Shown here in pieces: positions 4,845-48,486 of a stretch of 64,000 nucleotides of DNA. Location of the stretch: positions 744,001-808,000 of the forward strand of contig NZ_CP034998.1 of assembly GCF_002531755.2 (NCBI RefSeq). The letters are read 5' to 3'. The stretch comes from Rhizobium acidisoli. Lineage in GTDB: Bacteria > Pseudomonadota > Alphaproteobacteria > Rhizobiales > Rhizobiaceae. The notes beneath the pieces are model-generated. The model made no database searches. It was not told the origin of the DNA and saw only the letters and a list, made by a program, of their open reading frames with translations. The position numbers were made by a program, and so were the translations under genes. How positions within the stretch are numbered: the stretch's first letter is position 1; the number at the start of each line of letters is the position of its first letter.

Positions 4845-4860
4845 ATTGCGCTTGACATAA

Positions 4861-4879: not shown

Positions 4880-4886
4880 AGTGCGC

Positions 4887-5114
4887 ATGGAAAACAGCGA
4901 CATCATCAACTCTCCCAGCCTCGGAGACCGCGGCGCCACCCGCCGAGCCCGCTACACCGGTTGCCCGAACTGCGGCAAGGCGCTGTCGATCGCCGAGGTG
5001 ATCGAGCGCCATTGCGAGACCTGCGGCCGGCAGACCAACCCGAAAGAGATGCGGCAGACCGTCGATGTCCCCGGCGCACCGCACACCGATCCCGACAGCC
5101 TCACGCCTCCCTGA
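4887..5114 (+). CDS. small zinc-finger protein, first early gene (Cro position)
   Basis: The product is 75 residues. It carries a CPNC ... CETC pair of knuckles (about residues 27-30 and 46-49), a likely single zinc ribbon. It occupies the place of Cro or an antirepressor as first gene of the rightward operon, but has no helix-turn-helix I can see. The start at 4887 is chosen because the promoter -10 ends eight bases before it. No ribosome site fits, so the mRNA is probably leaderless. An upstream in-frame ATG at 4833 lies inside the operators and is rejected. Confidence 0.75.
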   Translation: MENSDIINSPSLGDRGATRRARYTGCPNCGKALSIAEVIERHCETCGRQTNPKEMRQTVDVPGAPHTDPDSLTPP

Positions 5115-5301
5115 CGGCTATCGGTGGCCGGCGTCGTCGCCCTCCCTCGGCGACGCCGGCATCCAATCCCCGGGCCGCGGCCCGGCAGGCGATCGGAGCC
5201 TTTGCTCCCGCAACAGAGCCGGCGCTCCGGTCGCCGTCGATGAATTCAAATGAACCATATCTAAGCACCCGCTTCGGCGGGAACGGCGCGCCGCGCTCGA
5301 A

Positions 5302-5553
5302 ATGGACAAGAAGGATCACACCGGCATGAACGCGCTCCAGCTCTTCCGCACCGGCAGGGACTATATCGAAATCGCAGCCGTGCTCGGCATGTCGGTGCCT
5401 TCGGTGGAAATCGAGATCCACCGGCTTCGAAGCGCCGAGAAGGGCGATACCGCCCAGCAGGATCATGCCGGCGCCGAGATCCGCCGCTTTCCTCACCGGA
5501 TCCAGCCGGGCACGCCGGTTAATTTTTTCGGCGGGCAGCGGCGTCGGGTTTGA
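5302..5553 (+). CDS. small putative helix-turn-helix protein
   Basis: The product is 83 residues. Residues 10-44 (NALQLFRTGRDYIEIAAVLGMSVPSVEIEIHRLRSA) look like a sigma-70 region 4 or LuxR-like helix-turn-helix. The rest is basic and low in complexity. It is in the early phage operon. The start at 5302 is uncertain; Met at residue 9 is an alternative. Between 5115 and 5301 I see no gene. Confidence 0.5.
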   Translation: MDKKDHTGMNALQLFRTGRDYIEIAAVLGMSVPSVEIEIHRLRSAEKGDTAQQDHAGAEIRRFPHRIQPGTPVNFFGGQRRRV

Positions 5554-5576
5554 GCGGCGGGAGAAAGGAAAACGGC

Positions 5577-5942
5577 ATGGCGAAGGACACAATGAGCAAG
5601 GACGTCATGGACATCCTCAGCCCGGTGCTGGGGGAGGAGCTGGCGGCAGCCGTCATCGAGCACCGCCGGCGCACGCTGCGCAAGCCGCTGACGGCTTACG
5701 CCGCCCGCATCCAGGCCAGGGAATATCTGCTGACCGGCGATCCGGCCGGTGCTGCCGAAATGCAGATCTTCCGCGGCTGGCAGGCGATCAAATGTGACTG
5801 GTACCTCAAGGAGAAGGCGAGGGAAGCCGGGTCGATCAACAGCAGCACGAGAAGGACAGCAGTGGATGCCGCAAGAGATTTCCTCTCCGGTGAAGATCAT
5901 AGCGGGGATGCTTTCGGGTTTCCCGGCATCATCAGGCACTGA
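5577..5942 (+). CDS. early phage protein of unknown function
   Basis: The product is 121 residues, starting MAKDTMSKDVMDILSPV. The start at 5577 is picked for the GGAGAAAGGA ribosome site upstream. The helical central part (EHRRRTLRKPLTAYAARIQAREYLLTGDP) is reminiscent of small phage DNA-associated proteins, but I do not recognise it. Its last 77 bases overlap the next gene in another frame, which suggests translational coupling. Confidence 0.65.
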   Translation: MAKDTMSKDVMDILSPVLGEELAAAVIEHRRRTLRKPLTAYAARIQAREYLLTGDPAGAAEMQIFRGWQAIKCDWYLKEKAREAGSINSSTRRTAVDAARDFLSGEDHSGDAFGFPGIIRH

Positions 5943-33339: not shown

Positions 33340-34372
33340 CGATCGGAAACCGTTGATCACCGCCCGGCAAGTCGATTATGACTGCCGTAAATCCAAGCTG
33401 CGAGATTTGAATGCAGAGGTGAATTCGGCCAAGTCGATATCGGCCAGGCATCTCGATCGAGCCGATGACAGCGGCTAACGTCACCGAGCCACCATCGCGG
33501 ATTTGCCACAGCGCTCACCCTTTGTTCCGTCATCCTCGGGCTTTACACTTGACCCGAGGATCCACATTGGTCTCCATCAGCAGCGGGCATGGATCCTCGG
33601 CTCAAGGCCGAGGAGGGCGGAGGTTGGGGTAGCCTTTTCGCCAACTCCGCCGCCGGAGCGCCGCAAGTCTGCCGCCAATTGGGCGTCCGGCAGAATAGAG
33701 TTCTAAGTTGACAGTCGGTCACGCTTGAAGGCGCTTGATCACCCCCCGGCAGGTCAGTTAAGACTACTGTAAATCCAAACTGCGAAATTTGAATTCGGAG
33801 GTGTGGTTGGCCAAGTCGATATCGGCCAGGCATCTCGATCGAGCCGATGACAGCGCCTAACGTCACCGAGCCATCATCGCGGATTTTCAGCAGTGCTCAC
33901 CCCTTGCTCCGTCCTCTTCGGGCTTGACCCGAGGATCCACGTTGACCTCCATCGGCAGCGGGGATGGATCCTCGGCTCAAGGCCGAGGAGGACGGAGGTT
34001 GGGGTGGCGTTTTCGCCAAATCCACCACCGCAGCAGTGGGTGACATTCTGGCGTGCACTCCAAATTGACAAAACCCACATCAGCCCTTGATCACCCCCCG
34101 GCGGATCATTTATCACTACCGTAAATCCAAGCTGCGAATATTGATTCCGAAGGCAATGATCGACGATCAAATCGGTGTTGCTCTTCGATCGCATGCATTC
34201 GCCGAGGCTCCCCGGCCAGCGTCATCGAACGCCACCGCGGGTTTGGCACAGCCCTCACCCCTTGCTCCGTCCTCCTCGGGCTTGACCCGAGGATCCACGT
34301 TGGCCTCCGCCAGACGTGGGCATGGATCCCAGGCTCGAGGCCTGGGATGACGGAGGGTGGGGGGAGGTTTTC
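33340..34372. repeat. threefold composite repeat ending in RIME copies
   Basis: Three diverged units begin GATCACC.CCCGGC at 33355, 33737 and 34089. Each continues with CTACTGTAAATCCAAACTGCGAA-type sequence, the first two share CAAGTCGATATCGGCCAGGCATCTCGATCGAGCC-type sequence, and each ends in a RIME copy (33513-33630, 33895-34010, 34252-34370). Periods are about 382 and 352 bp. It fills the gene-free stretch 33258-34448 directly before the late phage genes. Confidence 0.88.
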
Positions 34373-34448
34373 GCCAAACCTATCGGAGCTAAGCGTGCCC
34401 CTGCGGCAGCGTCGGCGTGGACACCGATTTCTCACAAGGAGAACTGCC

Positions 34449-34685
34449 ATGGACGCTTCGATTGCGCCGGCCTCGCGGGCAGCAGCGGTGACCCCGAATG
34501 ATAGTGCGATCGTCGGCGCGCGGGCGCTTTATATCGGCACGGCGGGCGATGTGGCGATTGCGCCGCGGCGGGATGTGGATCCGGTGGTCTTCAGGAACGT
34601 GCCGGCCGGGACGATCCTTCCGGTTCATGCGGCCATCGTGGCGCTGACCGGGACCACCGCTTCCAACATCATCGCGCTGTTCTGA
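34449..34685 (+). CDS. phage spike-base-like small virion protein
   Basis: The product is 78 residues. ARALYIGTAGDVAIAP...VVFRNVPAGTILPVHAAIVALTGTTASNIIALF matches my memory of the short 'spike base protein' family named after a gene of the Rhodobacter gene transfer agent (Rcc01079). An AAGGAG ribosome site is present. It is the first gene of the late operon. A virion decoration role is inferred. Confidence 0.7.
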   Translation: MDASIAPASRAAAVTPNDSAIVGARALYIGTAGDVAIAPRRDVDPVVFRNVPAGTILPVHAAIVALTGTTASNIIALF

Positions 34686-34703
34686 GCTTTCAGAAACAGA
34701 CCC

Positions 34704-35174
34704 ATGGGCAGACCGACCAAGTTCACCCAGGCACTGGCCGAGAAGATCTGCGACCGCATTGCCGACCGGGAAAGCCTGCGGGCGATCTGCCGGGATGAGG
34801 ATATGCCGGCGAAATCGACGGTGCTCTCTTGGCTTGCCGACGACGGCAAGGCGGCGTTTCGGGCACGCTATGCGCTGGCGCGCGAGATCCTCGCCGACGG
34901 CTTCGTCGACGAGCTGGTCGAGATTGCCGACGACCGCAGCAACGACTGGATCGAGAAGAAGAATGCCGCCGGCGATACCACCGGCTGGCAGGAGAATGGC
35001 GAGGCGATCCGGCGTTCGCAGCTGCGTATCGCCACCCGCCAATGGGTTGCCGAGAAGCTGAAGCCGAAGAAATACGGCTCGAAGGCCGAGCCCGAACAGG
35101 GCGTGACCGGCGAAGTCTCGCAATTGCTGGAAGATATCAATGGCAAAACCCGCGGACTTCCAAACGGCGGTTGA
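34704..35174 (+). CDS. terminase small subunit (Sf6/P22-type)
   Basis: The product is 156 residues. The N-terminal helix-turn-helix (FTQALAEKICDRIADRESLRAICRDEDMPAKSTVLSWLADD) and helical core fit small terminase subunits that recognise pac DNA. The C-terminus (EVSQLLEDINGKTRGLP) overlaps the large-subunit start by 35 bp in another frame, the usual arrangement. Confidence 0.9.
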   Translation: MGRPTKFTQALAEKICDRIADRESLRAICRDEDMPAKSTVLSWLADDGKAAFRARYALAREILADGFVDELVEIADDRSNDWIEKKNAAGDTTGWQENGEAIRRSQLRIATRQWVAEKLKPKKYGSKAEPEQGVTGEVSQLLEDINGKTRGLPNGG

Positions 35175-36711
35175 TCAGTTCTCCGACTGGCGCTGGCGGC
35201 TGAACAATCTCTACTGGATCACCGACAAATCGGGCCGGCGCGTCAGGTTCGAAATGAACTGGACGCAGATGACGTTTTTCGAAGAGATGCATTATCTCAA
35301 CGTGCTGCTGAAGGCCCGCCAGCTCGGTCTGACCACCTTCATCCAGATCTTCATGCTCGATGCCTGCGTCTTCAACCGGGATATCCGGGCCGGCACCATC
35401 GCCCATACGCTCGGCGACGTGCAGACGATCTTCAGGGACAAGGTCAAATACCCCTATGACAATCTGCCGGATGGTATCCGCAACGCCGTGCCCGTCGTCA
35501 GGGGCAACCAGGCCGAACTGCTGCTCGCCAACAATTCGAGCATCCGCGTCGGCACGTCGCTGCGCTCGGGAACACTGCAATATCTGCACATCTCCGAATA
35601 TGGAAAGCTGTGCGCCAAATATCCCGACAAGGCGCGGGAGGTGCGCACCGGCGCTTTGAATACGGTGCAGGCCGGCCAGCTGGTGTTCATCGAAAGCACG
35701 GCGGAAGGCCAGGAAGGGCATTTCTATACGCTCTGCGAGGATGCCAAGGTCAAGCAGCGGCAAGTCGCCAAGCTCACCGAACTGGACTTCAAGTTCCATT
35801 TCTTCCCGTGGTGGAAGGAGCCGCAATATGCGATCGCGCCTCAAGGCGTCATCGTCAGCGATGCTTTCGCCAAATATTTTCGCCAGCTTGCCGAACAAGG
35901 CATCACCCTGACCGACGGGCAGAAGGCCTGGTACGTCAAAAAGGCCGAAACCCAGCTCGGCGATATGAAGCGCGAATATCCCTCGACACCGGCGGAGGCT
36001 TTCGAGGCGAGCGTCGAGGGCGCCTATTACGCTGAGCAGATGGCGGTGGCCGACGCCGAAGAGCGCATCGGGGTCTTTCCGCATGTCGACGGTTATCCGG
36101 TTCACACCATTTCCGATATCGGCATGGACGACACCAACAGCGTCTGGCTGTTCCAGGTGCTGCCCGGCCGTATCAGGATGATCGGTTATTTCGAGCATAC
36201 CGGCACCGGCATGGACGGCATGCTCGACGAGCTGGCACGGCGCAGTACCGAGCACGGCTATGTCTACGGCGTCCATAACATGCCGCACGACATCAAGGTC
36301 CGCGAATGGACGCGCGGCGGCATGACCCGCATCGAGATCATGCTGAAAGAGGTCAGGGCGCGTGGTCTCGGCACGGTGCGCAAGGTCGAGCGCGCCTATG
36401 TGCACGACCGCATCAACGGCACCCGGCGCATTCTGGCAAAGGTCGAGTTCGACCAGGCCGGCTGCATCGAGGGCATCAAGTGCCTGAGGAACTACCGCAA
36501 GGATTGGGACGAGGATCTCGGCGTCTTCCGCGACGAGCCGCTGCACAACTGGGCCTCGCACGGCGCCGACGCTTTCGGCGGGCTCGCGATCATCTTTACC
36601 GGCCTGGCGCCCGAGCCGCTGAAACCGGAGCGTAAGCCGCTGCCGACATTCCAGACGATGACATTCAACGAATTTGCCGATGCCACCCCAAGACAGAGCG
36701 AGCGTGTTTGA
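35140..36711 (+). CDS. terminase large subunit
   Basis: The product is 523 residues. The N-terminal ATPase has a Walker A-like LLKARQLGLTT (about 45-55), Walker B-like LQYLHISEYGK (about 145), and the coupling motif FIESTAEG (about 187). The C-terminal RNase H-like nuclease begins TISDIGMDDTNSVWLFQV (about 325) with the expected Asp residues. It packages DNA into the head by ATP-driven translocation and cuts it. It is coupled to the small subunit by overlap and to the portal gene by TGATG. Confidence 0.92.
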   Translation: MAKPADFQTAVDQFSDWRWRLNNLYWITDKSGRRVRFEMNWTQMTFFEEMHYLNVLLKARQLGLTTFIQIFMLDACVFNRDIRAGTIAHTLGDVQTIFRDKVKYPYDNLPDGIRNAVPVVRGNQAELLLANNSSIRVGTSLRSGTLQYLHISEYGKLCAKYPDKAREVRTGALNTVQAGQLVFIESTAEGQEGHFYTLCEDAKVKQRQVAKLTELDFKFHFFPWWKEPQYAIAPQGVIVSDAFAKYFRQLAEQGITLTDGQKAWYVKKAETQLGDMKREYPSTPAEAFEASVEGAYYAEQMAVADAEERIGVFPHVDGYPVHTISDIGMDDTNSVWLFQVLPGRIRMIGYFEHTGTGMDGMLDELARRSTEHGYVYGVHNMPHDIKVREWTRGGMTRIEIMLKEVRARGLGTVRKVERAYVHDRINGTRRILAKVEFDQAGCIEGIKCLRNYRKDWDEDLGVFRDEPLHNWASHGADAFGGLAIIFTGLAPEPLKPERKPLPTFQTMTFNEFADATPRQSERV

Positions 36712-38801
36712 TGGAAGACGAGATAACGGCTTCGGAGAATGGGCAGCGCTGGGATACGGCCAAGGTCGGCGCCCATTGGCAGCAGGAGCTCGAGCGCGCG
36801 CGGCGCTATTTCAAGTCCTGGCACGACCGCTGCGTCAAGATCGAGAAGATCTATCTCGACCAGCAGTCCGACCAGACGAGCGCGGCCAAGCGCCGCTTTC
36901 CGATGCTCTGGGCCAATACTTCGGTGCTGCAGCCGGCCGTCTATGCCCGTGTGCCGCAGCCGGTCGTCGAGCGCCGCTTCAAGGATGCCCAGCCGGTGGC
37001 GCGCATCGCTTCGGAACTGGTCGAGCGCAATCTCGCCTATACCGGCGATGAGGCCGATATCGATTCGATCATGCGGGCGGTGCGCGACGATTTCCTGCTC
37101 TGCGCCCGCGGCACGGTGTGGCTGCGCTATGAGGCCGATTTCGAGCCGCTCGATATGGGCGTCCAGCCCTCGGACCCGGCGGCAGCCCACAATCTATCCG
37201 AAAGTTTGCCCGGCGAGATCGGCGGAGCACCGCCCGAGGCGATCAGCGACGAGCGTGTGTGCATCGATTATGTCCACTGGTCGGATTTCCTGCATTCGCC
37301 GGCCCGCCGCTGGAAGGATGTGACCTGGGTGGCGCGGCGCGTGCCGATGACCGACGAGGAAATGGAAAAGCGCTTCGGCGCTGAGGCCATGGCATCGCGG
37401 GCGGCGGAAGGCACGGCCGGCAATAAGGCCGCCAGCCAGGCCGAGCGCCTGGAGAATGAGGGCAAGACCCATGTCTGGGAGATCTGGTGCAAGAGCGAGA
37501 ATTATACGGTCTGGATCGCCGACGGTTCGCCGGTGGCGCTTGAGGTTTCCGAGCCGCCGCTCGACCTGACGCATTTCTGGCCTTGCCCGCGCCCGGCCTA
37601 CGGCACGATGTCGACCAGCTCGCTGATCCCGGTTCCGGACTATGTCTATTACCAGCAGCAATGCGACGAGATCGATCTGCTGACCAAGCGCATCAACAAG
37701 CTGACCGATCAGCTGCGGCTGAAAGTGTTCTATCCCTCCGGCGACGGCGCGGTCTCGCCGGCGATCGAAAAGGCGATGCGGCCGGAGAACGACATGGTGA
37801 TGGTGCCGATCCCGGAATGGGCGGCATTCACCGACAAGGGCGGCTCGAAGGCGATCGTGACGCTGCCGATCGACGAGGTGCAGAAGGTGATCGTCGCTTG
37901 CATGCAGGCGCGCAAGCAGCTGATCGAGGACGTCTATCAGATCACCGGCATCTCCGACATCGTGCGTGGCGACACGCAGGCGTCGGAGACGGCCACGGCG
38001 CAGCGCATCAAGAGCCAGTGGGGCTCGATCCGCATTCGCGACCGCCAGGCCGAGCTTGCCCGCTTTGCCCGCGACATCATCCGCCTTGCCGGCGAAATCA
38101 TCTGCGACCAGTTCCAGCCGGAAACGCTGATGCTGGTGAGCGGCATCCGGCTGCCCAGCATGGCCGAGAAACAGCAGGTACAAATGCAGATGCAGATGGC
38201 GGCACAGCAGGCGGCCATGCGGGCACAGCAGATGGGCCAGCCGGCACCGCCGCCCCCCGAAATGCCGCCGCAGCTGCAGCAGATGATGGGGCAGCCGACG
38301 ATCGACGAGGTGGTGCAGCTCTTGCGCAACGACAGCATTCGCGGCTTCCAGATCGAGATCGAGACGGATTCGACCATCGAGCCTGACGAGGATGCCGAAA
38401 AGCAGCGCCGCATGGAATTCGTGCAGATGGTCGGCGGCTTCATGCAGCAGGCCGGCGCCATGGCGCAGCAGAGCCCGATGCTGGTGCCGGTGATGGTCGA
38501 GACGCTGCTCTTTGCCGCTCGCGGCTTCCGGGCCGGCCGCCAGCTCGAAAGCACGCTGGAGCAGGTCGGCGCCCAGCTCTCCCAGGCGGCAGCCGCGCCG
38601 AAACCGGAACCGCAGCCTTCACCCGGCGAGATGCTCAAACTGAAAACCGCCGAGGTGAAGGCCGGCGCCGAACAGCGCAGAGCCGAACTCAGTGTCGCCG
38701 AGGCCGAGATCGAACATCGCGCCACGGTGGAACAGGCGCGCGGCCAGATGGCGGCGCAGGCGATCGACCAGATGCGCGCCGCGCAGACCCCCTATCAATA
38801 G
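36711..38801 (+). CDS. portal protein (P22-like)
   Basis: The product is 696 residues, the size of P22-type portals. It has an N-terminal wing (RARRYFKSWHDRCVKIEKIYLDQQ), a stem/clip region, and a long C-terminal barrel rich in Gln and Met (about 485-680, VQMQMQMAAQQAAMRAQQMGQ). It forms the dodecameric DNA gateway at one capsid vertex. The ATG overlaps the terminase stop. This type implies a short-tailed (podovirus) virion. Confidence 0.9.
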   Translation: MEDEITASENGQRWDTAKVGAHWQQELERARRYFKSWHDRCVKIEKIYLDQQSDQTSAAKRRFPMLWANTSVLQPAVYARVPQPVVERRFKDAQPVARIASELVERNLAYTGDEADIDSIMRAVRDDFLLCARGTVWLRYEADFEPLDMGVQPSDPAAAHNLSESLPGEIGGAPPEAISDERVCIDYVHWSDFLHSPARRWKDVTWVARRVPMTDEEMEKRFGAEAMASRAAEGTAGNKAASQAERLENEGKTHVWEIWCKSENYTVWIADGSPVALEVSEPPLDLTHFWPCPRPAYGTMSTSSLIPVPDYVYYQQQCDEIDLLTKRINKLTDQLRLKVFYPSGDGAVSPAIEKAMRPENDMVMVPIPEWAAFTDKGGSKAIVTLPIDEVQKVIVACMQARKQLIEDVYQITGISDIVRGDTQASETATAQRIKSQWGSIRIRDRQAELARFARDIIRLAGEIICDQFQPETLMLVSGIRLPSMAEKQQVQMQMQMAAQQAAMRAQQMGQPAPPPPEMPPQLQQMMGQPTIDEVVQLLRNDSIRGFQIEIETDSTIEPDEDAEKQRRMEFVQMVGGFMQQAGAMAQQSPMLVPVMVETLLFAARGFRAGRQLESTLEQVGAQLSQAAAAPKPEPQPSPGEMLKLKTAEVKAGAEQRRAELSVAEAEIEHRATVEQARGQMAAQAIDQMRAAQTPYQ

Positions 38802-38817
38802 GCTTCGGAGCAACAGC

Positions 38818-39129
38818 ATGAGAGAACGCTATTGCCGCGTCTGCGGCGGTTGGCACCAACTCGACCAATGGCCGCAGAATTGCCTGCCGGCGCAAAACCC
38901 GGCGCTGTCGGATCTGCCGACGCCGCATTTCGTCAGCGACAACATCGATATCCAGTCGATGCATGACGGGAGGCATTACACCTCGAAAGCCAGGCTGCGC
39001 TCGGCCTACCGGGCAGCCGGGGTGATCGAGATCGGTAATGAAAAGCCGCAGCCGATCGAGCAGCCGAAGACGGATCGAACGGCGATCCGCAACGAATTGC
39101 GGCGGGTGCACGCCGAATACAACGCCTAA
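38818..39129 (+). CDS. small zinc-knuckle phage protein
   Basis: The product is 103 residues. The N-terminus RERYCRVCGGWHQLDQWPQNC has three Cys and one His suited to bind zinc. The rest holds a YTSKA.LR..YR.AG motif seen in short phage proteins between portal and scaffold genes. Function unknown. Confidence 0.75.
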   Translation: MRERYCRVCGGWHQLDQWPQNCLPAQNPALSDLPTPHFVSDNIDIQSMHDGRHYTSKARLRSAYRAAGVIEIGNEKPQPIEQPKTDRTAIRNELRRVHAEYNA

Positions 39130-39221
39130 TGCATGTCGCCCGGAAGTGTGTAGCGGTTCCGGGATAACGACATGCATAAAAGCTCTAACGGGCATCAATC
39201 CCCGACATAGGAAATTTCCCA

Positions 39222-40298
39222 ATGGATATGGAAGACCTGAACGAGGCCGGCAACGGCAGCGAAGATTTTGGTGCGTTCGACGATAAGTCATTGAGCGATG
39301 GGCCCGTCAGCATCCGCGACAGCCTGAAAGCGGCGATCGACACCGTCGAGTCCAATGGACCGGGCGATATATCAGGCCAGCCGCGCGACGGCGAAAACGG
39401 CCGCTTCCTGGCCAAGGGGCAGGAGCAGGCCGGCGCTGCAACGCGGGCAGGGCAGGCGCCGGCGGCAAATGCCGCCCAGCAGCAGGCGCTGCAGAACCGC
39501 GGGCAGGGCGGCGACCAGCCGGCCGCCGGCAGCAGCCGGGTGCCGCCCGGCTGGTCGGCGGAAGCCAAGGCGCAGTTCACGAGCCTTCCCCACGAAGTGC
39601 AGGCGGCGATCGCCAAGCGCGAACAGGAGGTCGATAACGGCTTCCGCGTCCTGCAGGATTACAAGGGGCTGGAGGAATTCACCCCGATCGTCCGCCAGGC
39701 CGGCATGACCCATGCCGATGTCATGCGCCGGGCGATCGACTGGGAGAAGGCGCTCATCCACGATCCCGTCAACACCGTCGTTCACGTCGCCAGAATGGCT
39801 GGGGTCAATCTTCACGCCCTGGTCAATGGTCAGACGGGAGAGATCCTGCAGCGGAATTCGCAGCAGGCACAGCCCCAACGCCAGACCGGCGCCTTCAATG
39901 TCGAGGCGACGGTCGAACATGTTTTGCGGAAAAGGGACACCGAAACTCAAGTCGATGCCTTCCTTTCCGACCCGGCAAACGCGCACGCCGAAGATGTGCT
40001 CGAGGACATGATCGCCCTTGTCAACGCAGGGCGGGCAACGTCGCTCCAGGACGCCTACGACGCCGCATGCTGGATGCGCCCGGACATTCGCCGGCAGTTG
40101 ATCAGCCAGACTGCTCAGGCATCCGTCCCACAACTCCACGCCCAGAGGGCCGCAGCGGCAGATCAAGCCCGCCGCGCCTCGCGATCCATCTCTGGTTCTT
40201 CCGCGCCGGGCCCGACCCGCGATGCGGCAAGAGGCCAGCCCACCTCCATCCGCGACTCGCTGCGCGACGCCATGCGTTTTTCGCGCGGCCAAGTCTGA
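39222..40298 (+). CDS. capsid scaffold-type protein
   Basis: The product is 358 residues, highly charged and low in complexity at the N-terminus (1-110, Gly/Ala/Gln-rich). Helical segments follow (VEATVEHVLRKRDTETQVDAFLSDPANAHAEDVLEDMIALV). The phrase DGPVSIRDSLKAA near the start is echoed by PTSIRDSLRDAM near the end. Its place between portal and capsid and its composition indicate the internal scaffold that guides head assembly. Confidence 0.75.
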   Translation: MDMEDLNEAGNGSEDFGAFDDKSLSDGPVSIRDSLKAAIDTVESNGPGDISGQPRDGENGRFLAKGQEQAGAATRAGQAPAANAAQQQALQNRGQGGDQPAAGSSRVPPGWSAEAKAQFTSLPHEVQAAIAKREQEVDNGFRVLQDYKGLEEFTPIVRQAGMTHADVMRRAIDWEKALIHDPVNTVVHVARMAGVNLHALVNGQTGEILQRNSQQAQPQRQTGAFNVEATVEHVLRKRDTETQVDAFLSDPANAHAEDVLEDMIALVNAGRATSLQDAYDAACWMRPDIRRQLISQTAQASVPQLHAQRAAAADQARRASRSISGSSAPGPTRDAARGQPTSIRDSLRDAMRFSRGQV

Positions 40299-40330
40299 TC
40301 AAAGGCCAATTCTGATCAAAGGAATGATCG

Positions 40331-42339
40331 ATGCCCATTTCGCCCAACCTCTCTGAAATCGTCACCACGACGCTGCGCAACCGCAGCGGCACGGTCGCCG
40401 ACGACGTGACGAAGAACAACGGTCTTCTCACCCGCCTCAACAGCCGCGGCCGCAAGAAGCCGATCTCCGGCGGCCGGACCATCGTCCAGGAACTGCAATA
40501 TCAGGAAAATTCCACCTTCAAGCGGTTAACTTTTGCAGCCGCCGCCTGAGGTTTGCTTGCGTGCCAAAAGCCTGTCCGTTGTTGCAGCTTTGATATTGTT
40601 GCAGCGGCCGCATAACGTTTGAGCATTCTCTTGAACGTTTGTACCACCTGCACAGCAAGGGATTATATGATCCAGCGTTAGGTTGGAATTCGAACCGCAA
40701 TGAGCGCACTCTGTTCCAAGCCACTTCTTTCGCTGCAATGGCGTGAAATTAGTGGTTCGGTATCGGCGTCTCGGGCGCGGCTTCAAGAACTCCTCTTCGG
40801 AATATGGCTCAAGTCCCCACATGGACCTGCCATAGGCTGATACGCATTTAGGATCGCCGCAGGTCTTATCGATGTTCCTTTCGATCATCGATTTCTTGCG
40901 GTATGCCTGATCCCCGCAAACAACACATGTGATTGTTTTGCCCCTTAGATTTTGAGGACGTGGAGCGCTTTTATCGATCAGCTTCAGCCTAAATCCCTGC
41001 TGGCGGCAGGGCTCGGAACAAAACCGAGACCGACCCGCCTTGATGTCGCTGACGGTTCGATAGAAACCATTCCCACATGCCTCGCAGACAAGGGTTGAGC
41101 CTCGCTTCCTTTTAGCTTCGATCGAACCATCTGATCGGGCTTTGCCGACACAGGCTCTAGAGCAGAATTTGGAGGATGTTCCGTTGGCTTCCGCATAGCG
41201 GATCGCCGAAGGCCATTTCTCGAAAGAAGCTGCGCAATATTCACATGTCAAAGTGATCTTTGGCACGTATTACCTCAGGTGAAAAACCGGGTTAATTCGG
41301 GGAAAACTATCGCCAATCAGATGTTGTGTTCTAATAATAGCATCTGAATCAAAATGATGGCAATCCCGAACCAAGCCGCATATGTAGCAATCCGATGGAT
41401 TGTGAGGGATGCGGAAGGTCGAACGACTAGGCAGTGACGAAAGAATAATCTGCCCACGAAATCCCGGCCCATAGCAAATGGGAAGATATAGTCTGAGCTT
41501 CACTGAGTTGGCGCAAGGTGAAGAAGCAGGGGATAAAGAGCCTCTGCGATAACAGAACTGACTCTGGTTACGATATCCTGAACGTCCAGCCCTCCGACGT
41601 CATCACCGCTGCCGAATACGACCTCAAGCAGGCTGCGGTCGCCGTCTCCATGTCGGGCCTCGAACAGCTGCAGAATTCGGGCGAGGATGCGATCCTCGAT
41701 CTTCTCGAGCAGCGCATCGAGAACGCCGAAACCACGTTGAAAAACAACATCGCGCTCGACTGCTATTCCGACGGCACGGCCGATGGCGGGCGGCAGATCG
41801 GCGGCCTGCAGCTGTTGATCTCGACCTCGCCGACCTCCGGCACCGTCGGCGGCATCTCGCGCGCCACCTGGGGTTTCTGGCGCAACCAGAAATTCTCGGC
41901 CTCGGCCGATGGTGGCGCGGCCGCCACCAACGCCAACATCCAGAGCTATATGAACCGGCTCTATATGTCTTGCGTCCGCGGCTCCGACGCGCCCGATCTC
42001 GTCGTCGCCGACAACAACTTCTTCCGCCTCTACTGGGAATCGCTGCAGGCAATCCAGCGCATCACCTCGGCCGACAAGGGCATGGCCGGCTTCCAGTCGC
42101 TGCAATACATGGGCGCCGACGTGATCTTCGACGGCGGCTTCGGTGGCGGCGCTCCACTCAACCAGATGTTCTTCCTGAACACCAAATACCTGTTCTACCG
42201 CCCGCACCGCGACCGCGACATGGCGCCGATCGGCGATGAGCGCATGAACACCAACCAGGATGCCTTCGTCCAGCTGATGGGCTTTGCCGGCAACCTCACC
42301 ATGAACAACGCCTTCCTGCAGGGCGTGTTGTTCGCCTGA
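40331..42339 (+). CDS. major capsid protein, gene interrupted by a group I intron
   Basis: Exon 1 is 40331-40526 and exon 2 is 41561-42339. Together they give 975 nt, 324 residues and a single clean frame. The junction reads TFKR-Y-SGYDILN, a natural continuation for this capsid type (ENST.QRYSGYD.L...PSDV..AAEYD.KQAAV). Later parts (GGRQIGGLQLLI, TWGFWRNQ, DRDMAPIGDERMNTNQDAFVQLMGFAGNLTMNN) are typical of this capsid family. Without splicing, translation would stop at residue 72 (TGA at 40547-40549), so head formation depends on intron removal. Confidence 0.93.
40526..41266 (-). CDS. HNH homing-type endonuclease, antisense within the capsid intron
   Basis: The product is 246 residues from a GTG at 41266 with GAGG eight bases upstream. 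Three zinc knuckles (C8xxC11..C35..C39; C61xxC64..C83..C87; C114xxC117..C136..C141) precede a C-terminal HNH nuclease (C187xxC190, D199-H200, N214, C219xxC222). Such multi-zinc HNH proteins are usually free-standing or intron-borne homing enzymes that nick the intronless allele. Here the gene runs against the capsid transcript. Its TAA stop uses the last base of exon 1 and the first two of the intron, so its 3' end covers the 5' splice site and P1 guide. AT-richer than the phage genes. Confidence 0.9.
   Translation of the reverse strand: MPKITLTCEYCAASFEKWPSAIRYAEANGTSSKFCSRACVGKARSDGSIEAKRKRGSTLVCEACGNGFYRTVSDIKAGRSRFCSEPCRQQGFRLKLIDKSAPRPQNLRGKTITCVVCGDQAYRKKSMIERNIDKTCGDPKCVSAYGRSMWGLEPYSEEEFLKPRPRRRYRTTNFTPLQRKKWLGTECAHCGSNSNLTLDHIIPCCAGGTNVQENAQTLCGRCNNIKAATTDRLLARKQTSGGGCKS
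40527..41560 (+). ncRNA. group I self-splicing intron
   Basis: The intron is 1034 nt, between exon bases ...AGCGGT and ACTCTGG.... The exon end GCGGU can pair with GCCGC at 40537-40541, placing the conserved U.G at the splice site (P1). Core elements are readable in order: P (AATTCGGGGAAAACT, near 41294), Q (AATCCCGAACCAAGCC, near 41362), R (GAACGACTAGGCA, near 41420) and S (AAGATATAGTC, near 41483), with P7 as GACTA/TAGTC. A stem-loop GCAGG...CCTCTGC (41526-41547) fits P9, and the last base is G. The ribozyme core occupies only the final 300 nt; the 5' part holds the antisense HNH gene. Confidence 0.93.
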
Positions 42340-42363
42340 TCGTCCACGAAAGGAACAAAGCAA

Positions 42364-43149
42364 ATGTCGGTCGCAACAATCCAGTCCGATCGTCTTGGCG
42401 CGAACCCGTTCGTCGTCGAAGGCCCGATCGTTTCCGGCTCCGGTATTCCCGGGCCGAACTTTGCCCTTGGCGCGATTGCCGGCGGCGATCGTGAATCCGA
42501 ATGGGTCTATTGCCAGCTGGTGCTGGCCTCGCAGACCACCCTTCAGCCCGGCCAGTGGTTCCAGTGGACCAGGGATTATGTCGCTTCGCTGCTGACGACG
42601 GCCGCCGCCGTCGTCGGCCAGCGCTGCGGCGTCTTTTCGGGGGCCGCCCAGCCGCCGACACTGACCGGCGGCCCAGTCGGGGCCATTACGCTCGCAGCCG
42701 GCACCTATTACGTCTGGCTGCAGCGCAACGGCCAGGCGCCGTCGCAGGTGGCCACCGCAACGGCGGCCCTCGTCGTTGCCGAAACCACCGCCACCGCAGG
42801 TCAGGCGAGCGCCCCGGCCTCGGCCACCGCAACCACCAAGGCGATCGCCAACGTCAACTTTGCCGCCGCCAACCAGACGTTCACCGCAACCACCGTCAAC
42901 GGCTCCAACCTGCTGGGGGGCATTGCCGGCCTGAGTGCCGGCTCCGGCCCGTTCATCGGTGCCGCGGTCGCCGGCACCGGTATTGCCGGCGGCACGACGA
43001 TTGCGGGCATCACCTACAGCCCGAACGGCGTCGTCCAGAGCATCACCCTCTCGGCCAACGCGACGGCCAACGGCACTGGTATCACCATCACCGCGACGGG
43101 CGTACTCGAAGCGACGCTGATGCGGCCATATTTGTCGAAGGTGAACTAA
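42364..43149 (+). CDS. head decoration-type protein with Ig-like/Gly-Thr-rich tail
   Basis: The product is 261 residues. The N-terminal half (about 1-130: GPIVSGSGIPGPNFALGAIAGGDRESEWVYCQLV..) looks like small capsid-associated proteins that follow the major capsid gene. The C-terminal half is Ala/Thr/Gly-rich (FAAANQTFTATTVNGSNLLGGIAGLSAGSGPFIGAAVAGTGIAGGTTI), resembling adhesin-like beta repeats. It probably stabilises or decorates the head. Confidence 0.7.
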   Translation: MSVATIQSDRLGANPFVVEGPIVSGSGIPGPNFALGAIAGGDRESEWVYCQLVLASQTTLQPGQWFQWTRDYVASLLTTAAAVVGQRCGVFSGAAQPPTLTGGPVGAITLAAGTYYVWLQRNGQAPSQVATATAALVVAETTATAGQASAPASATATTKAIANVNFAAANQTFTATTVNGSNLLGGIAGLSAGSGPFIGAAVAGTGIAGGTTIAGITYSPNGVVQSITLSANATANGTGITITATGVLEATLMRPYLSKVN

Positions 43150-43214
43150 ATCAAGCAATCAACGGGCGTTTCGGCGCCCGTCATGGCTACCAACAAGGCC
43201 TGCAAACTTCTCTT

Positions 43215-43300
43215 CCGTCATGCTCGGGCTTGTCCCGAGCATCTGCCGCCGGTCGATGCGCAGCAGATCCTCGGCACAAGGCCGAGGATGACGAGGAGGG
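43215..43300. repeat. palindromic repeat inside the late phage operon
   Basis: Two hairpins, GCTCGGGCTTGTCCCGAGC and ATCCTCGGC-acaa-GGCCGAGGAT, form a RIME/RPE-type pair. It lies between two virion genes, in DNA that should otherwise be phage-specific. Confidence 0.85.
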
Positions 43301-43352
43301 GATGCTTCTCCCCGCTCATTCACTTCCCCGCCATCAACAGCGAGACCAGCAA

Positions 43353-43916
43353 ATGCCCGACAACACCGGAATCTATGCCTCCTTCAGCCTCGAACCGGTC
43401 GAACAGACCTTTCTGACCGAGAAGGAAGGCCGGCCGATTTTTGCCGACAAGGAATTCGTCCGCATCTTCATCGCCGGCGACAAACATACCGAGGTCTACC
43501 GTGAGGTGACCGACAACGACAAACAGCGCTTTTCCGACGCCTACAAACGGTTCAAGGAAGGCGCCGAGGCCCGTGAGCAGCTGACCGGCACGCCGCTTTC
43601 GCAATGGCCCTATCTCAAGCCCAGCCAGATCAAGGAGATGGAGGCGGTCAACATCTATACCGTCGAGCAGCTCGCAGCCCTTTCCGACACCGCCAAGCAG
43701 AAGATCGGCATGGGCGCCAACGAGCTTACCGCCGCCGCCCGGGCCTATCTCGCCACTGCCGAAAACTCCAGCGCGGCGTCCGCCTTTGCCGCCGAAAACG
43801 AGCGGCTGAAGGACGAGGTCACCCGCCTGCAGGCGCAGATGAAGGAGATGGCCTCGCGCTTCGAGGCGCTCGAAAGCGAAAGCGGCAGCAAGTCCCGAGG
43901 TCGGCAAGCAGCCTGA
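43353..43916 (+). CDS. late phage protein with C-terminal coiled coil
   Basis: The product is 187 residues. The N-terminal part (TFLTEKEGRPIFADKEFVRIFIAGDKHTEVYREVTDND.QRF..AY..FK) is a motif common in phage proteins near capsid genes. KEMEAVNIYTVEQLAALSD resembles a helix-hairpin-helix. The C-terminal 45 residues form a heptad-type coiled coil (AAENERLKDEVTRLQAQMKEMASRFEALE). Role unknown, possibly head completion. Confidence 0.75.
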   Translation: MPDNTGIYASFSLEPVEQTFLTEKEGRPIFADKEFVRIFIAGDKHTEVYREVTDNDKQRFSDAYKRFKEGAEAREQLTGTPLSQWPYLKPSQIKEMEAVNIYTVEQLAALSDTAKQKIGMGANELTAAARAYLATAENSSAASAFAAENERLKDEVTRLQAQMKEMASRFEALESESGSKSRGRQAA

Positions 43917-43936
43917 AGATGCGCTGACGCAAGCAG

Positions 43937-44054
43937 CCCCCTCATCCGACCCTTCGGGCCACCTTCTCCCCGCTGGGGAGAAGGGAGAATCGAGACGCCG
44001 CCACCTGTCTCTTCTCCCCAGCAGGGAGAAGGTGCCGGCAGGCGGATGAGGGGG
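43937..44054. repeat. long inverted repeat between virion genes
   Basis: CCCCTCATCCG and CACCTTCTCCCC..GGGGAGAAGG form outer and inner arms mirrored by CTTCTCCCC..GGGAGAAGGTG and CGGATGAGGGG. The downstream flank CCACACGGCACA matches the end of the repeats at 1-45 and 23104-23143. It separates the coiled-coil gene from the next virion gene and could form a strong transcript hairpin. Confidence 0.85.
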
Positions 44055-44108
44055 CCACACGGCACACCTGTCCCGCCACGCCCACCGCCCTGAACAGGAG
44101 ATCCGCGC

Positions 44109-44816
44109 ATGTCGCTCTTGACCATCATTCAGAACGTCTGCGCGGAAATCGACCTCGATCCGCCGACGGCCGTCATGTCTTCGGCGGATCCGCAGATCAT
44201 GCAGCTGCGCATCCTCTCCACCCGCGCCGGCCGCGACCTGGTGCGCGAGCATGACTGGTCGGCGCTGATGGTGCGGCGGCAGTTCGTGGCGACCGGTGCA
44301 AATCCGGAACCGGCCGAGCCGCCGGATGACTGGAACCGCTTCGCCGCCAATGCCAAGATCTGGAACGCCTCGCGCCTCTGGCAGCTCAACGGCCCTGTCG
44401 AGCCGCAGACCTGGCAGCGCCAGACGATCCTCAATTCCAACCCGGTGCCGCAGATCTGGCGCATGGCCGGCGGCAAGCTCGACATCTACCCGAACGTCTC
44501 GGGCGAGACGATGGAATATGCCTATATCTCCGGCTTCTGGGTGGCGGTGAATGGCGGCGCGACCACTGCGGCGAATTGGGCAAACGACACCGATACCGCC
44601 CGTTTTCCCGAAGACCTTCTCGAACTCTCGCTGATCTGGCGCTGGAAGCGGGCCAAGGGCCTCGATTACGGCGAGGAGATCGCCAGTTTCGAGCGATCCA
44701 AGGAATCGGCGATCGGCGCCGACCGGGCGGCAAGCCCTGTCGGCCTCTCGCTGCCGGCGAGGGGTGAAGCGCCTGAGAATTATTGGCCCGGCACGATCAC
44801 GGTGGCAAATCCATGA
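44109..44816 (+). CDS. head-to-tail adaptor-type protein
   Basis: The product is 235 residues. MSLLTIIQNVCAEIDLDPPTAVMSSADPQIMQLRILSTRAGRDLVREHDW is the usual opening of phage head-tail joining (gp4/gp6-like) proteins that bind under the portal. The later part is Trp-rich. It overlaps the next gene by four bases. An AGGAGAT ribosome site is present. Confidence 0.75.
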   Translation: MSLLTIIQNVCAEIDLDPPTAVMSSADPQIMQLRILSTRAGRDLVREHDWSALMVRRQFVATGANPEPAEPPDDWNRFAANAKIWNASRLWQLNGPVEPQTWQRQTILNSNPVPQIWRMAGGKLDIYPNVSGETMEYAYISGFWVAVNGGATTAANWANDTDTARFPEDLLELSLIWRWKRAKGLDYGEEIASFERSKESAIGADRAASPVGLSLPARGEAPENYWPGTITVANP

Positions 44817-46636
44817 CCCGCAGACCTGTCCCTCCGAATGGGCGCACCGGCCGCGTTTCGCCGAGCAAGGACTGGATCGCGCCGATCGGCGGCTGGCGAA
44901 CCGATGTCGAGATGGCGGATATGCCCGCGGATGCGGCGTTTCAGCTCGACAATTTCTTCCCCGAGGCCAACCGTGTGCGCGCCCGCTACGGCTTCCTTGC
45001 CTTCTCAACCGGCCTTGGCGGCGACGTGCAGACGGTCATCCCCTATTCGGGCGTCAGCAACAGGCTGTTTGCCGCTGCCGGCGACAAGATCTTCGACGTC
45101 ACGGTGGGCGGCGCTGCCGGTGCGCCTGTCGTCTCGGGCATGGCGAGCGCCCATTGGTCGGTGCAGCAATATACCAACCCGGCCGGCCAGGAATTCCTGC
45201 GTCTCGTCAACGGCCTCGACACGCCGCTGCTTTTCAACGGCACCTCCTGGACGAATAATTTTCTGGTGGGCACGGCAGCGCTCGCCACCCAGAACGTCGC
45301 CGTCCGCAACACGCCCTATACGCTGAGCTTCTTCGGTACCGGCTCCGTCACGCTCTCCGGCGCCTTCTCCGGTACGCTGAACGGCACCGGCGTCAACAAC
45401 CGCGTGTCGCTTCCCTTCACGCCCGCGGCCGGCACGCTTGTCGTCACCGTGACGGGAACGGTCACCAATGCGCAGCTCGAAAAGGGCGCGGTCGCCACGC
45501 CTTACGTCGCCTCGACGATGATATCAGGCATATCGGACTCGTCGCTGCTGATCGCGGTGACGGCCTATCGCTCGCGCCTGTGGTTCATCGAGAAGAATTC
45601 GACCAATGTCTGGTATCTCGCCACCGACGCCGTCAGCGGCGCGGCGACGGTTCTGCCGGTCGGCGGCAACATGAAATACGGCGGCACGCTGGTTGCGATC
45701 AACGTCTGGACGATTCCGGTTTCCACGGGCCTGCAGCAGTGCCTGGTGCTGATCTCCTCGGAAGGCGAGGTGATCGTCTTCCAGGGTTCCGATCCATCGA
45801 GTATTGCGAACTGGGGGCTGATCGGCACCTTCAAGCTCGGCCGGCCGCTCGGCAGCGACCGATGCCTGCTGTCGGTCGGCGCGGATCTGGCGATCATGAC
45901 GACCGATGGCATCGTGCCGATCACCAAGGCGGTGCAGCTCGACCGCGGCGCCACCAGCCTCGGGGCGATTACTGCGAGAATCGGCCCGACATGGCGCGAG
46001 ACGGTGGCGGCAACCGGCACGACCTCGCAGGAATGGCAGCTTTCGAGCTTCCCGGCGCGGCAGATGGCGATCGTCAACCTGCCGTCCTCCTTCGGCCCCT
46101 ATCAATATGTCATGAACACCGAAACCGGCGCCTGGTGCCGCTTCGTCGGCATGCCCGCCTCCTGCTGGGCGAGCTGGCAGGATCGGCTGTTCTTCGGCGC
46201 CGGCGACGGCACGGTCTATGAGGCCGAGGTCGGCGCCAACGACAATGGCGTGGCGATCGACGCACTGATGGTCGGCGCCTGGAGCCGCTATGGCGACGGG
46301 CTTTCGACCAAGCTCTCGAAGCTGATCGGGGTGACGGCGCAGATCGGCGTTTCCTCGCTGATGTATGGCGGGATCTCGGTGGATTACCAGACCAAGATTC
46401 CCACAGCGCTGCTGTCGTCGGTCGAAAACAACGCGGCGGCGAAATGGGGAACGGCGGTCTGGGGAGTCTCGAAATTCCCCGGCGTTTCGCTGGTGCGCAA
46501 ATTCGCCTCCGCCGGCGGCGCCGGCTCGGCCTTGGCGCCGACGATCCGCGCGCTGATTTCCGGCTCCTCCGGCTCCGTCTCCGAGGCGGCCGTCGTCGGC
46601 GGCTCGGTGCTTTACGAAAAGGGCGCGCCGATTTGA
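44813..46636 (+). CDS. large tail/hub protein of podovirus type
   Basis: The product is 607 residues. The N-terminus DWIAPIGGWRTDVEMADMPADAAFQLDNFFPEANRVRARYGFLAFSTGLGG is the typical start of phage proteins that thread beta-propeller-like domains around the tail tube (P22 gp10-like position). Several later segments are beta-rich. It is coupled to the adaptor gene by ATGA overlap and to the next gene by TTGA overlap. Confidence 0.75.
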   Translation: MTRRPVPPNGRTGRVSPSKDWIAPIGGWRTDVEMADMPADAAFQLDNFFPEANRVRARYGFLAFSTGLGGDVQTVIPYSGVSNRLFAAAGDKIFDVTVGGAAGAPVVSGMASAHWSVQQYTNPAGQEFLRLVNGLDTPLLFNGTSWTNNFLVGTAALATQNVAVRNTPYTLSFFGTGSVTLSGAFSGTLNGTGVNNRVSLPFTPAAGTLVVTVTGTVTNAQLEKGAVATPYVASTMISGISDSSLLIAVTAYRSRLWFIEKNSTNVWYLATDAVSGAATVLPVGGNMKYGGTLVAINVWTIPVSTGLQQCLVLISSEGEVIVFQGSDPSSIANWGLIGTFKLGRPLGSDRCLLSVGADLAIMTTDGIVPITKAVQLDRGATSLGAITARIGPTWRETVAATGTTSQEWQLSSFPARQMAIVNLPSSFGPYQYVMNTETGAWCRFVGMPASCWASWQDRLFFGAGDGTVYEAEVGANDNGVAIDALMVGAWSRYGDGLSTKLSKLIGVTAQIGVSSLMYGGISVDYQTKIPTALLSSVENNAAAKWGTAVWGVSKFPGVSLVRKFASAGGAGSALAPTIRALISGSSGSVSEAAVVGGSVLYEKGAPI

Positions 46637-47049
46637 TCGTCTCCGAACCGCGCGAGGACATCGCTGCCTGGGTCGCCGGCCGGATCGGCGTCAGCTTCCA
46701 CCCGCCTTACACCGCGCTTGCTCATGTCGACCGCGGCCGGATCATTGCCGGCTTCGTCTTCAACGTCTGGACCGCGCATGATGTCGAGGTCTCGCTTGCC
46801 GCCGACCGGCTGACGCGGACGCTGATGCGATCGGTGTTTCACTACGTCGTGCATCAGCTCGGCTGCCGGCGCGCAACCGCCAGGACACAGGCCGACAACC
46901 TTGACGCCCAGACGATGCTCGCAAGGCTCGGCGCACGCCTGGAAGGCCGCCAGCAGGCCTATTTCGGCGACTGCGACGCGCTGCTTTACGCAATCATGAA
47001 GGAGGATTTCCCCTATGGTCTCCACGCCAAAGGCCCCGAAGGCGCCTGA
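46633..47049 (+). CDS. phage GNAT-like acetyltransferase fold protein
   Basis: The product is 138 residues from a TTG at 46633 that overlaps the preceding stop codon. RIIAGFVFNVWTAHDVEVSLAADRLTRTLMRSVFHYVVHQLGCRRATARTQADNLDAQTMLARLGARLEGRQQAYFGDCDALLYAI has the strand-helix order and the terminal N..A..ML..LG.. motif of GNAT enzymes. The Q/RxxGxG/A acetyl-CoA loop is weak, so activity is uncertain. Such proteins are common beside podovirus tail genes. Confidence 0.7.
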   Translation: MIVSEPREDIAAWVAGRIGVSFHPPYTALAHVDRGRIIAGFVFNVWTAHDVEVSLAADRLTRTLMRSVFHYVVHQLGCRRATARTQADNLDAQTMLARLGARLEGRQQAYFGDCDALLYAIMKEDFPYGLHAKGPEGA

Positions 47050-48022
47050 TCCGACACAGACCGCGGCCGCGCAGACAGCGACGAACGTCGACACCGCCAT
47101 CGCCAATGCCGGCTTGAGCCACACCAACCAGTACACACCCGACGGTTCGCTGGAATACAAGCAGACCAGCAAGAGCATCATGAAGGATCAGAACGGCAAG
47201 ACATATGAGCTGCCGGTCTATTCCGCCTATCAGACCTATTCGCCTCAGAACCAGGCGATCTACGACCAGACGCAGCAGACCCAGCTCGGCCTCGCCAAGC
47301 TCGCCAACGACCAGACCGGCAAGATCTCAGGCATCCTCGGCACCAATGTCGATTTGAGCGCCGGCAATGTCGACAAATACGTCAACGATCACTGGCAGTC
47401 CGGCTTCAACAACCAGTGGGATCGCGATCAGGCGAGCCTCGACCAGAGCCTGGCCGACAAAGGCATCTCGATGGGCTCGGCGGCCTACGACAATGCGCTG
47501 CGCGATTTTTCCACCCGCAAGCAGGCGGCCTCCGACCAGTATCTCGGCGACATGTATTCGAATGCCCAGAATTCGATCCTGACCGAGCGCAACCAGCCGC
47601 TGAACGAGATTTCGGCGCTGATGTCGGGATCGCAGGTCCACCAGCCGAGCTACGTCAACACCCCGACGACGCAGCTGCCGAACGTCGACCAGGCCGGCCT
47701 GATCAATGAGAACTACAATCAGAAGATGGGCCAGTACAATCAGCAGGTCGCCCAGTCGAACGCCGCGATGGGCGGTCTCTTCGGCCTCGGCGGCTCACTG
47801 CTCGGAGGCTGGGCGATGAAATCCGACCGGCGGCTGAAGGAAGACATCAGACGGGTCGGCACCCTGGATAACGGCCTGCCGGTCTACGCCTTCCGCTACA
47901 AGGACGGCGGCCCGATGCAGCTCGGCCTGATGTCGGATGACGTGCGCGGGGTCCACCCGGATGCCGTGTTCGAAGCTGCCGACGGTTTCGATCGCGTCGA
48001 TTACGAGAGGGCAGTGGCATGA
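47015..48022 (+). CDS. virion protein with S74-like C-terminal chaperone domain
   Basis: The product is 335 residues, with AAGGAGG upstream of the ATG. The N-terminal region is Gln/Asn-rich with helical repeats (QAIYDQTQQTQLGLAKLANDQTGKISG). After a Gly-rich hydrophobic segment (GGLFGLGGSLLGGWA) the C-terminus KSDRRLKEDIRRVGTLDNGLPVYAFRYK...LGLMSDDV matches the intramolecular-chaperone (peptidase S74) motif SDxRLKxDI found at the ends of tail fibres. Here it ends a small, probably ejection-type, protein. Overlaps the next gene. Confidence 0.75.
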   Translation: MVSTPKAPKAPDPTQTAAAQTATNVDTAIANAGLSHTNQYTPDGSLEYKQTSKSIMKDQNGKTYELPVYSAYQTYSPQNQAIYDQTQQTQLGLAKLANDQTGKISGILGTNVDLSAGNVDKYVNDHWQSGFNNQWDRDQASLDQSLADKGISMGSAAYDNALRDFSTRKQAASDQYLGDMYSNAQNSILTERNQPLNEISALMSGSQVHQPSYVNTPTTQLPNVDQAGLINENYNQKMGQYNQQVAQSNAAMGGLFGLGGSLLGGWAMKSDRRLKEDIRRVGTLDNGLPVYAFRYKDGGPMQLGLMSDDVRGVHPDAVFEAADGFDRVDYERAVA

Positions 48023-48336
48023 TCCCAACCATCTCAGGCGGCAATACCGGCAGGACCCAGGCCGACATCGACGACAAGCGCAAGCAACTGGCCTACGCCA
48101 TGCTGGAGCAGGGCATGGATGCGAGCCCGGTGCAATCGCCGTGGGAAGGGATCGCGCGGCTTGCCGAAGGCGGGCTCGGCGGCTTGGCGGTTCGTCAACA
48201 GCGGCAGGAGCAGCAGGCAGGCGCCGGTCAAGGTGCCGGCGTTTCGACAGGCCAGCCTTCCAAACCAGCGCCGGCCTCTCCCGGCTTCCTGTCGCTGTTC
48301 TTCGGTGGTGGGCCGACGCGCCGGATTGACGGCTGA
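48019..48336 (+). CDS. small phage protein, paralogue of the N-terminus at 48487
   Basis: The product is 105 residues. ISGGNTGRTQADIDDKRKQLAYAMLEQGMDASPVQSPWEGIARLAEGGLGGLAVRQQRQEQQAG aligns along 65 residues with the start of the next large gene (FGGDTGKTQGDISDRRKQLADAMLQQGMNSGPVQSPWQGAARL). It ends in a Pro-rich tail. The pair is a tandem duplication; this copy is short. Confidence 0.7.
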   Translation: MIPTISGGNTGRTQADIDDKRKQLAYAMLEQGMDASPVQSPWEGIARLAEGGLGGLAVRQQRQEQQAGAGQGAGVSTGQPSKPAPASPGFLSLFFGGGPTRRIDG

Positions 48337-48486
48337 ACTAGGACATCAGCGGGGTAACGGCGTGCTGATCGGTTCCGATACAGGGACGACGGTCCGATCC
48401 AGATCGGCCTCATGTTCAACAATGTGTGAAAAATCCATCCAGACAGACGGTTTCGACCGCGTCTTCTACGAAAGGGCAGTGGACCA
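48337..48486 (+). pseudogene. decayed duplicate of the S74-like gene end
   Basis: Between the two paralogues, disrupted frames read GPIQIGLMFNNV and DGFDRVFYERAV, matching GGPMQLGLMSDDV and DGFDRVDYERAV at the end of the 47015-48022 gene. A TGA and frame changes break it. It marks the boundary of a tandem duplication of the segment 47.9-48.2 kb. Confidence 0.8.

Follow-up and report, generated by a model that had tools for sequence, protein, structure and literature searches.

The window, the whole 64,000-nucleotide stretch of Rhizobium acidisoli DNA analysed here, contains a phage late-gene module (34347–50553; TerS, TerL, portal, capsid, SU10-type adaptor and tail lysozyme) that lies between bacterial genes. 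The major capsid gene of this module is split by an insert with the features of a group I intron, and the insert carries an HNH endonuclease gene on its opposite strand. The features are as follows:

40331–40526, + strand: capsid 5′ exon, 65 codons plus base 1 of a Tyr codon (phrog_9953 positions 6–66; empty alleles)
40522–40526, + strand: P1 5′ strand GCGGU, in the exon (sequence; P1 scan)
40526–41266, − strand: HNH endonuclease gene, 246 aa, GTG start (ORF; Pfam HNH_5 2.1e-9; dN/dS 0.09–0.16)
40527–41560, + strand: group I intron, 1034 nt, terminal G (Rfam E 2.4e-9 over 41239–41523; compensatory changes; empty sites)
40538–40542, + strand: internal guide GCCGC (second register at 40541–40545)
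40543–40552, + strand: P2 5′ strand CGCCTGAGGT (partner ACCTCAGGTG at 41272–41281)
40558–40568, + strand: P2 extension TGCGTGCCAAA (partner TTTGGCACGTA at 41259–41269, containing the antisense start codon)
41272–41276, − strand: GAGGT, putative ribosome-binding site for HNH translation (within the 3′ strand of P2)
41287–41493, + strand: catalytic core, P3 to P8 (compensatory changes)
41294, 41362, 41418 and 41483, + strand: elements P, Q, R and S, in this order
41334–41363, − strand: promoter-like site upstream of the HNH gene (10/12 consensus matches; weak)
41425–41429 and 41489–41493, + strand: P7, GACTA/TAGTC
41430–41454, + strand: hairpin P7.1
41498–41547, + strand: P9 (41498–41523) and P9.2 (41526–41547)
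41561–42339, + strand: capsid 3′ exon including the stop codon (phrog_9953 positions 69–327)

Removal of 40527–41560 restores AAG CGG T|AC TCT and with it a single frame of 65 + 1 + 258 = 324 residues, and the proteins of both exons match one head-protein profile, phrog_9953, over positions 6–66 and 69–327. Unspliced, the capsid frame meets a stop codon seven codons inside the insert (ORF 40331–40549, 72 aa). Head production would then depend on splicing. Across the window, the sole match above an Rfam gathering score is a tRNA gene at 871–944.

Empty capsid alleles define the insert

We searched 148 genomes of the same genus with the 3′ exon protein and found it in 38 of them, at 45 places. 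The junction was read at 30 loci, and the codon is uninterrupted in 28; the two occupied loci are the window itself and one further genome (G032), which carries a 1034-nt insert at the identical base. The remaining 15 places have open frames of at least 322 codons, versus 280 at the two interrupted ones. A Bradyrhizobium phage capsid gene is likewise uninterrupted at this codon. Among the 80 viral-contig capsid loci listed, two lack the 5′ exon; of the 78 that can be scored, 71 are empty and seven are occupied, each of the latter by 1034 nt with an identical junction. These exact empty alleles mean that the insert is precisely bounded and is the minority allele. They also bear out, to the base, the boundaries and the single 324-residue frame given in the original prediction, which had proposed this comparison with intronless capsid genes.

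The nine intron copies (own genome, G032 and seven viral contigs) are 95–100% identical. Over both exons and the intron, one viral contig does not differ from the window and may come from the same strain. An assembly artefact as the source of the insert was rejected.

Intron alleles are scattered among empty ones and share an exon tract

To place the intron alleles relative to the empty ones, we built a tree from 2,530 nt of flanking sequence, with about 70 nt around the junction excluded, for nine intron rows, of which those of the window and L356 are identical, and 71 empty alleles. The intron rows fall in five places among the empties, with the starred branches forcing at least four changes, and a tree with all intron alleles in one clade is rejected (p-AU 3.6e-61). 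All intron alleles nevertheless share the junction sequence AAGCGGT|ACTCTGGTTACGATATCC. We compared the seven distinct sequences among the nine intron alleles with 52 empties, which remained after 17 of 69 distinct empties with less than 90% identity had been dropped. The tract from −14 to +24 is monomorphic in the seven intron alleles, whereas random sets of seven empties give a median of 8 and a maximum of 29 nt. Low diversity is clear in the bin +12 to +25, where none of 500 subsets was as low, and the deficit is not clear in the bins −10 to 0 and 0 to +12 (159 and 38 of 500 subsets as low, respectively). Two marks of the intron alleles, +2C and +5T, occur in 0/52 empties, and a third, −2G, occurs in 2/52. 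In four pairs of occupied and empty alleles, we counted 7, 4, 5 and 7 differences within the 38 positions from −14 to +24 and 31, 28, 48 and 37 in the other 935 positions.

The scattered intron alleles and their shared exon tract, as read from these alignments, fit homing with co-conversion. An alternative is vertical inheritance with many losses, in which the shared exon bases would descend from one old insertion and no homing would have taken place. It draws on the comparison of the window with another copy, L014, in which the intron (95.2% alike) and the exons (92.9% and 95.0%) are about equally diverged, which argues against a very recent sweep; in two further copies, L068 and L069, similarity to the window is somewhat higher in the intron than in the exons. 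It also draws on a yidB-like gene, which at 22 of the 39 capsid places in the genus (at least 85% identity) lies 8.3–11.0 kb from the capsid gene, so that much of the locus seems to be inherited in place. We nonetheless regard this alternative as unlikely: the tree rejects the one intron clade, and loss does not predict the concentration of differences within −14 to +24 of the four pairs. Homing with co-conversion accommodates both.

The insert has a conserved group I ribozyme core

The Rfam model Intron_gpI matches 41239–41523 with 43.9 bits (E 2.4e-9), and all 253 model positions are covered. The covariance search suggested in the original prediction thus gives a match that scores below the gathering score of 50 bits. 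That score is a threshold of the database and not a property of introns; its effect is that the window's core is missing from a default Rfam scan. Three related cores (L097, L098 and L100) score 51.9–53 bits.

For covariation analysis, we aligned eight cores from seven lineages (window, L014, L097–L101 and L104) by sequence only and drew the structure from the window; L104 was kept (alignment A3) although its splice points are not fixed. P0044 was left out of a further alignment (A1), and L102 was passed over as having the same match values as L101. Changes on both sides of a pair occur in 36 of 64 core pairs, versus 17.8 in shuffles, and 0/500 shuffles were as high. Pairing is present in 90.6% of cells (75.1% in shuffles) and reaches at most 44.5% when the partners are slid out of register. 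RNAalifold alone gives 45 pairs, 28 of them with both-sided changes. P7 is invariant and so contributes no covariation support. A single-sequence fold has a z-score of −5.1, with 0/200 shuffles equally stable. The window's core scores 312.9 bits with model R1, and a covariance model built from the eight cores matches L105, which is not among its building sequences, at 203 bits. Chance likeness to a group I intron was rejected on the Rfam E value, the fold z-score and the number of compensated pairs. The covariance match and the compensatory changes, together with the exact empty sites, uphold the proposal of a group I intron in a prophage major capsid gene, and each of the proposed elements is present: P, Q, R and S in order, P7, a P1 helix with its U·G pair and the terminal G.

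Introns of subgroup IA have an extra hairpin, P7.1, after the 5′ strand of P7. Such a hairpin is found in the window, with four of its five pairs compensated across lineages, and by this rule the intron may belong to subgroup IA.

P1 is formed by GCGGU and GCCGC, including the terminal U·G. Across lineages it follows its target, as GCGGU/GCCGC, GAGGU/GCCUC, CGGU/GCCG and GGGU/GCCC; cross-scoring of these short helices did not discriminate own P1 pairs from swapped ones. The usual exon sequence of empty alleles, GCGCU, has a match of just three bases in the first 50 nt of the intron, whereas GCGGU gives a five-base P1, and the −2 base is therefore probably important for splicing. The P2 strands and their extension would close P2 around the HNH gene. 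When 5′ and 3′ segments of P2 were swapped among seven lineages, the sum for own pairs was high (12 of 5,040 permutations were as good), although in only three of the seven does the own pair score best in its row. We recognized no P10 between the guide and the 3′ exon when reading the window sequence by eye; P10 is not present in every group I intron.

A decayed intron that has lost splicing, with a broken capsid gene in a remnant prophage, would account for an Rfam score below the gathering score and for a module in which, among 20 window proteins scanned with PHROGs, only late genes and no integrase were recognized. We consider this very unlikely, as the core of three related copies (L014, L068 and L069) differs from the window's at only 2–6 of 294 positions, whereas the HNH part differs at 27–44 of 738; pairing is maintained in every core helix across lineages; and both exons remain in frame, their proteins 100% or almost 100% identical to those of intact relatives. 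It is extremely unlikely that the insert is instead an HNH cassette without an intron, its likeness to an intron being due to chance as in the ShiLan element: HNH genes do occur in phage genes without a detectable intron, as part of PMC11855218 describes, but here the window and seven further lineages have a group I core next to the beginning of the HNH gene, on the strand of the capsid gene, with compensatory changes in the core and an in-frame stop codon early in the insert.

The antisense HNH gene shares sequence with the ribozyme

The original prediction contained neither the antisense HNH gene nor the evidence of intron movement. The HNH protein matches Pfam HNH_5 (2.1e-9) and HNH (6.3e-7), and within the HNH part the profile of its family aligns with HNH endonucleases of solved structure, best with 4h9d (E 5.9e-10). 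The frame is open in all eight copies translated, and dN/dS is 0.09–0.16 in the five comparisons that have non-synonymous changes; judged by these sequence comparisons, the gene is intact and under purifying selection.

The gene occupies the P2 loop and overlaps the P1, guide and P2 sequences. Its last codons run across P2, the guide and the 5′ end of the intron, and its TAA stop codon uses the last exon base. A GAGG, GGAG or GAGAG motif lies upstream of the HNH start in L097–L100 as well and is not clear in L101 and L104. Two promoter-like sites were found in the region, versus 0.9 expected. The C-termini of the HNH family end in GG followed by 0–6 residues in 31 of 43 members, and several of the tails resemble the CKS of the window's protein; we infer that the GG-ending members may also end at a GCC-rich guide. 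Stretches resembling the antisense of intron core elements, according to hand-picked motifs, are found in the N-termini of 10 of 44 family members. Taken together, these two terminal features imply that gene calls of the HNH family may hide capsid introns.

Related introns lie in the same stretch of other capsid genes

Seven more introns (L097–L101, L104 and L105) were found in the same capsid stretch of other phages, each with a related antisense HNH gene. A scan with an HNH alignment listed the best 80 of 253 relatives. Nine HNH relatives were viewed within their surrounding DNA, and eight of these (the seven above and L103) are antisense in a major capsid gene. The L103 contig breaks off within the HNH gene and includes neither core nor 3′ exon. 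The ninth, L170, lies in a Rhodobacterales genome outside a capsid gene, and no group I core was found there. At L170 (4001–4702), the HNH relative, at 53%, adjoins a resolvase-like ORF; it is the only close relative outside a capsid gene among the matches listed.

L097–L100 share the window's Arg-Tyr codon as insertion site, although their capsid parts are just 34–61% identical to the window's; L103, as far as its 5′ side shows, is inserted there too. The insertion in L101 is 9 nt downstream, at the next Tyr codon, and those of L104 and L105 are near there. Splice points of the relatives were set by hand from the frame, the U and the G, and the points of L104 and L105 are not fixed. The homing gene is antisense in all introns examined of this lineage.

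Further intron-like cores were noted in some of these records. L097 has a second one in the same capsid gene (4849–5581, − strand), in two pieces that score 129 and 48 bits with R1 and surround a capsid-strand ORF resembling, by eye, a GIY-YIG endonuclease. In L104, a second core (3389–3632, − strand; 107 bits with R1) lies farther along the same capsid gene and overlaps an ORF. A core of 72.9 bits in a genome of the same order (L398, 1501–1763) interrupts a gene and is followed by an ORF; by eye, we take the interrupted gene to be T7-type RNA polymerase-like and the ORF GIY-YIG-like.

Broader searches gave no similar intron in the plasmid records searched and, in the phage records searched, one HNH match only, over 40 residues. 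The single-protein HNH scan of genome contigs found no relative; the HNH-alignment scan of genome contigs found 26 loci, with a full-length match in L170 only. Among 394 genomes of the family, 363 had matches in the HNH search, which, the window aside, covered the HNH domain only (best E 3.5e-10), and none of 17 loci with HNH-domain-only matches matched the intron model. A 14-base core pattern occurs in at least 120 stretches of viral contigs.

A model for splicing and homing

We consider it very probable that the capsid gene holds a group I intron, predicted to be self-splicing, whose antisense HNH gene likely drives homing into intronless alleles. In the predicted splicing reaction, the exon end GCGGU would pair with the guide GCCGC in P1, and guanosine would attack directly behind it; the U so released would in turn attack after the terminal G, and ligation of the exons would give the 324-residue frame. 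In the corresponding homing reaction, the HNH protein would cut or nick the empty capsid site, and repair would copy the intron plus a few exon bases, thereby presumably swapping the usual GCGCU for the GCGGU that P1 requires. The exon marks of the intron alleles fit this ribozyme requirement. With 71 empty and seven occupied viral-contig alleles among the matches listed, this one prophage capsid site offers a natural-population view of intron homing.

The anatomy of the locus also invites the speculation that HNH mRNA could block capsid splicing. The antisense arrangement might act as a switch, in which HNH mRNA would be complementary to P1, the guide and P2, so that endonuclease synthesis would block splicing and capsid transcription would silence the endonuclease. 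We hold this to be doubtful. If true, DNA cleavage and coat production would rule each other out throughout the capsid intron lineage, and one stretch of DNA would have four roles at a time: ribozyme guide, P2 helix, ribosome-binding site and C-terminus of the endonuclease. For rDNA introns, part of PMC9548176 describes as unsolved how the expression of an antisense homing gene avoids disturbing the host RNA. The capsid intron lineage makes this question testable, with an HNH gene that in the window overlaps the guide.

Comparison with known introns

The original prediction regarded such an intron in an essential head gene of a rhizobial prophage as unusual. Capsid introns as such have precedents: according to part of PMC3706429, the mycobacteriophage LittleE has a major capsid intron of 819 bp whose splicing was shown by RT-PCR, and a capsid intron of the lactococcal phage Tuc2009 is cited there. 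We found no rhizobial capsid intron in the open-licence literature, judged mainly by titles and abstracts. A review of bacterial group I introns states, in one part, that ORFs usually lie entirely within loops (PMC3984707), and the words 'antisense', 'opposite' and 'capsid' are absent from its main text.

Group I introns of the same genus in tRNA-Leu(UAA) genes share the group I core with the window. In the window's own genome, such a short intron lies at C1:1440622–1440815 and scores 60.5 bits with Rfam; a group I match over the Rfam cut-off was found in 24 of 148 genus genomes, and the four loci checked are tRNA-Leu introns. Unlike the window's intron, which scores 312.9 bits with R1, these lie inside a tRNA gene and score 34.9 bits, and their length of 204–205 nt leaves no room for the HNH gene. 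The introns of phage T4, as part of PMC2988022 describes them, are likewise group I introns of a phage that carry homing endonuclease genes, but these genes are co-directional with their neighbours, the free-standing segD excepted. Didymium nuclear rDNA introns, described in part of PMC9548176, do have a homing gene on the strand opposite the ribozyme; they differ in that the gene encodes a His-Cys endonuclease, lies in P9.2, contains a spliceosomal intron and belongs to nuclear rDNA.

The closest parallel in layout is LittleE, which, as that part of PMC3706429 reports, combines a major capsid intron with a U before it, a G at its end and a homing-type gene on the bottom strand. That gene is annotated HNH and lies, like the window's, on the minus strand. 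Its HNH protein is not alike (BLASTP E 81), however, and its core scores 19.5 bits with R1 (E 7e-4). The two introns are built alike and are not demonstrably one family. LittleE is therefore a precedent for a capsid intron that carries a homing gene on the bottom strand; new here are the intron lineage, its use of one sequence for two purposes and the evidence from populations that it has spread.
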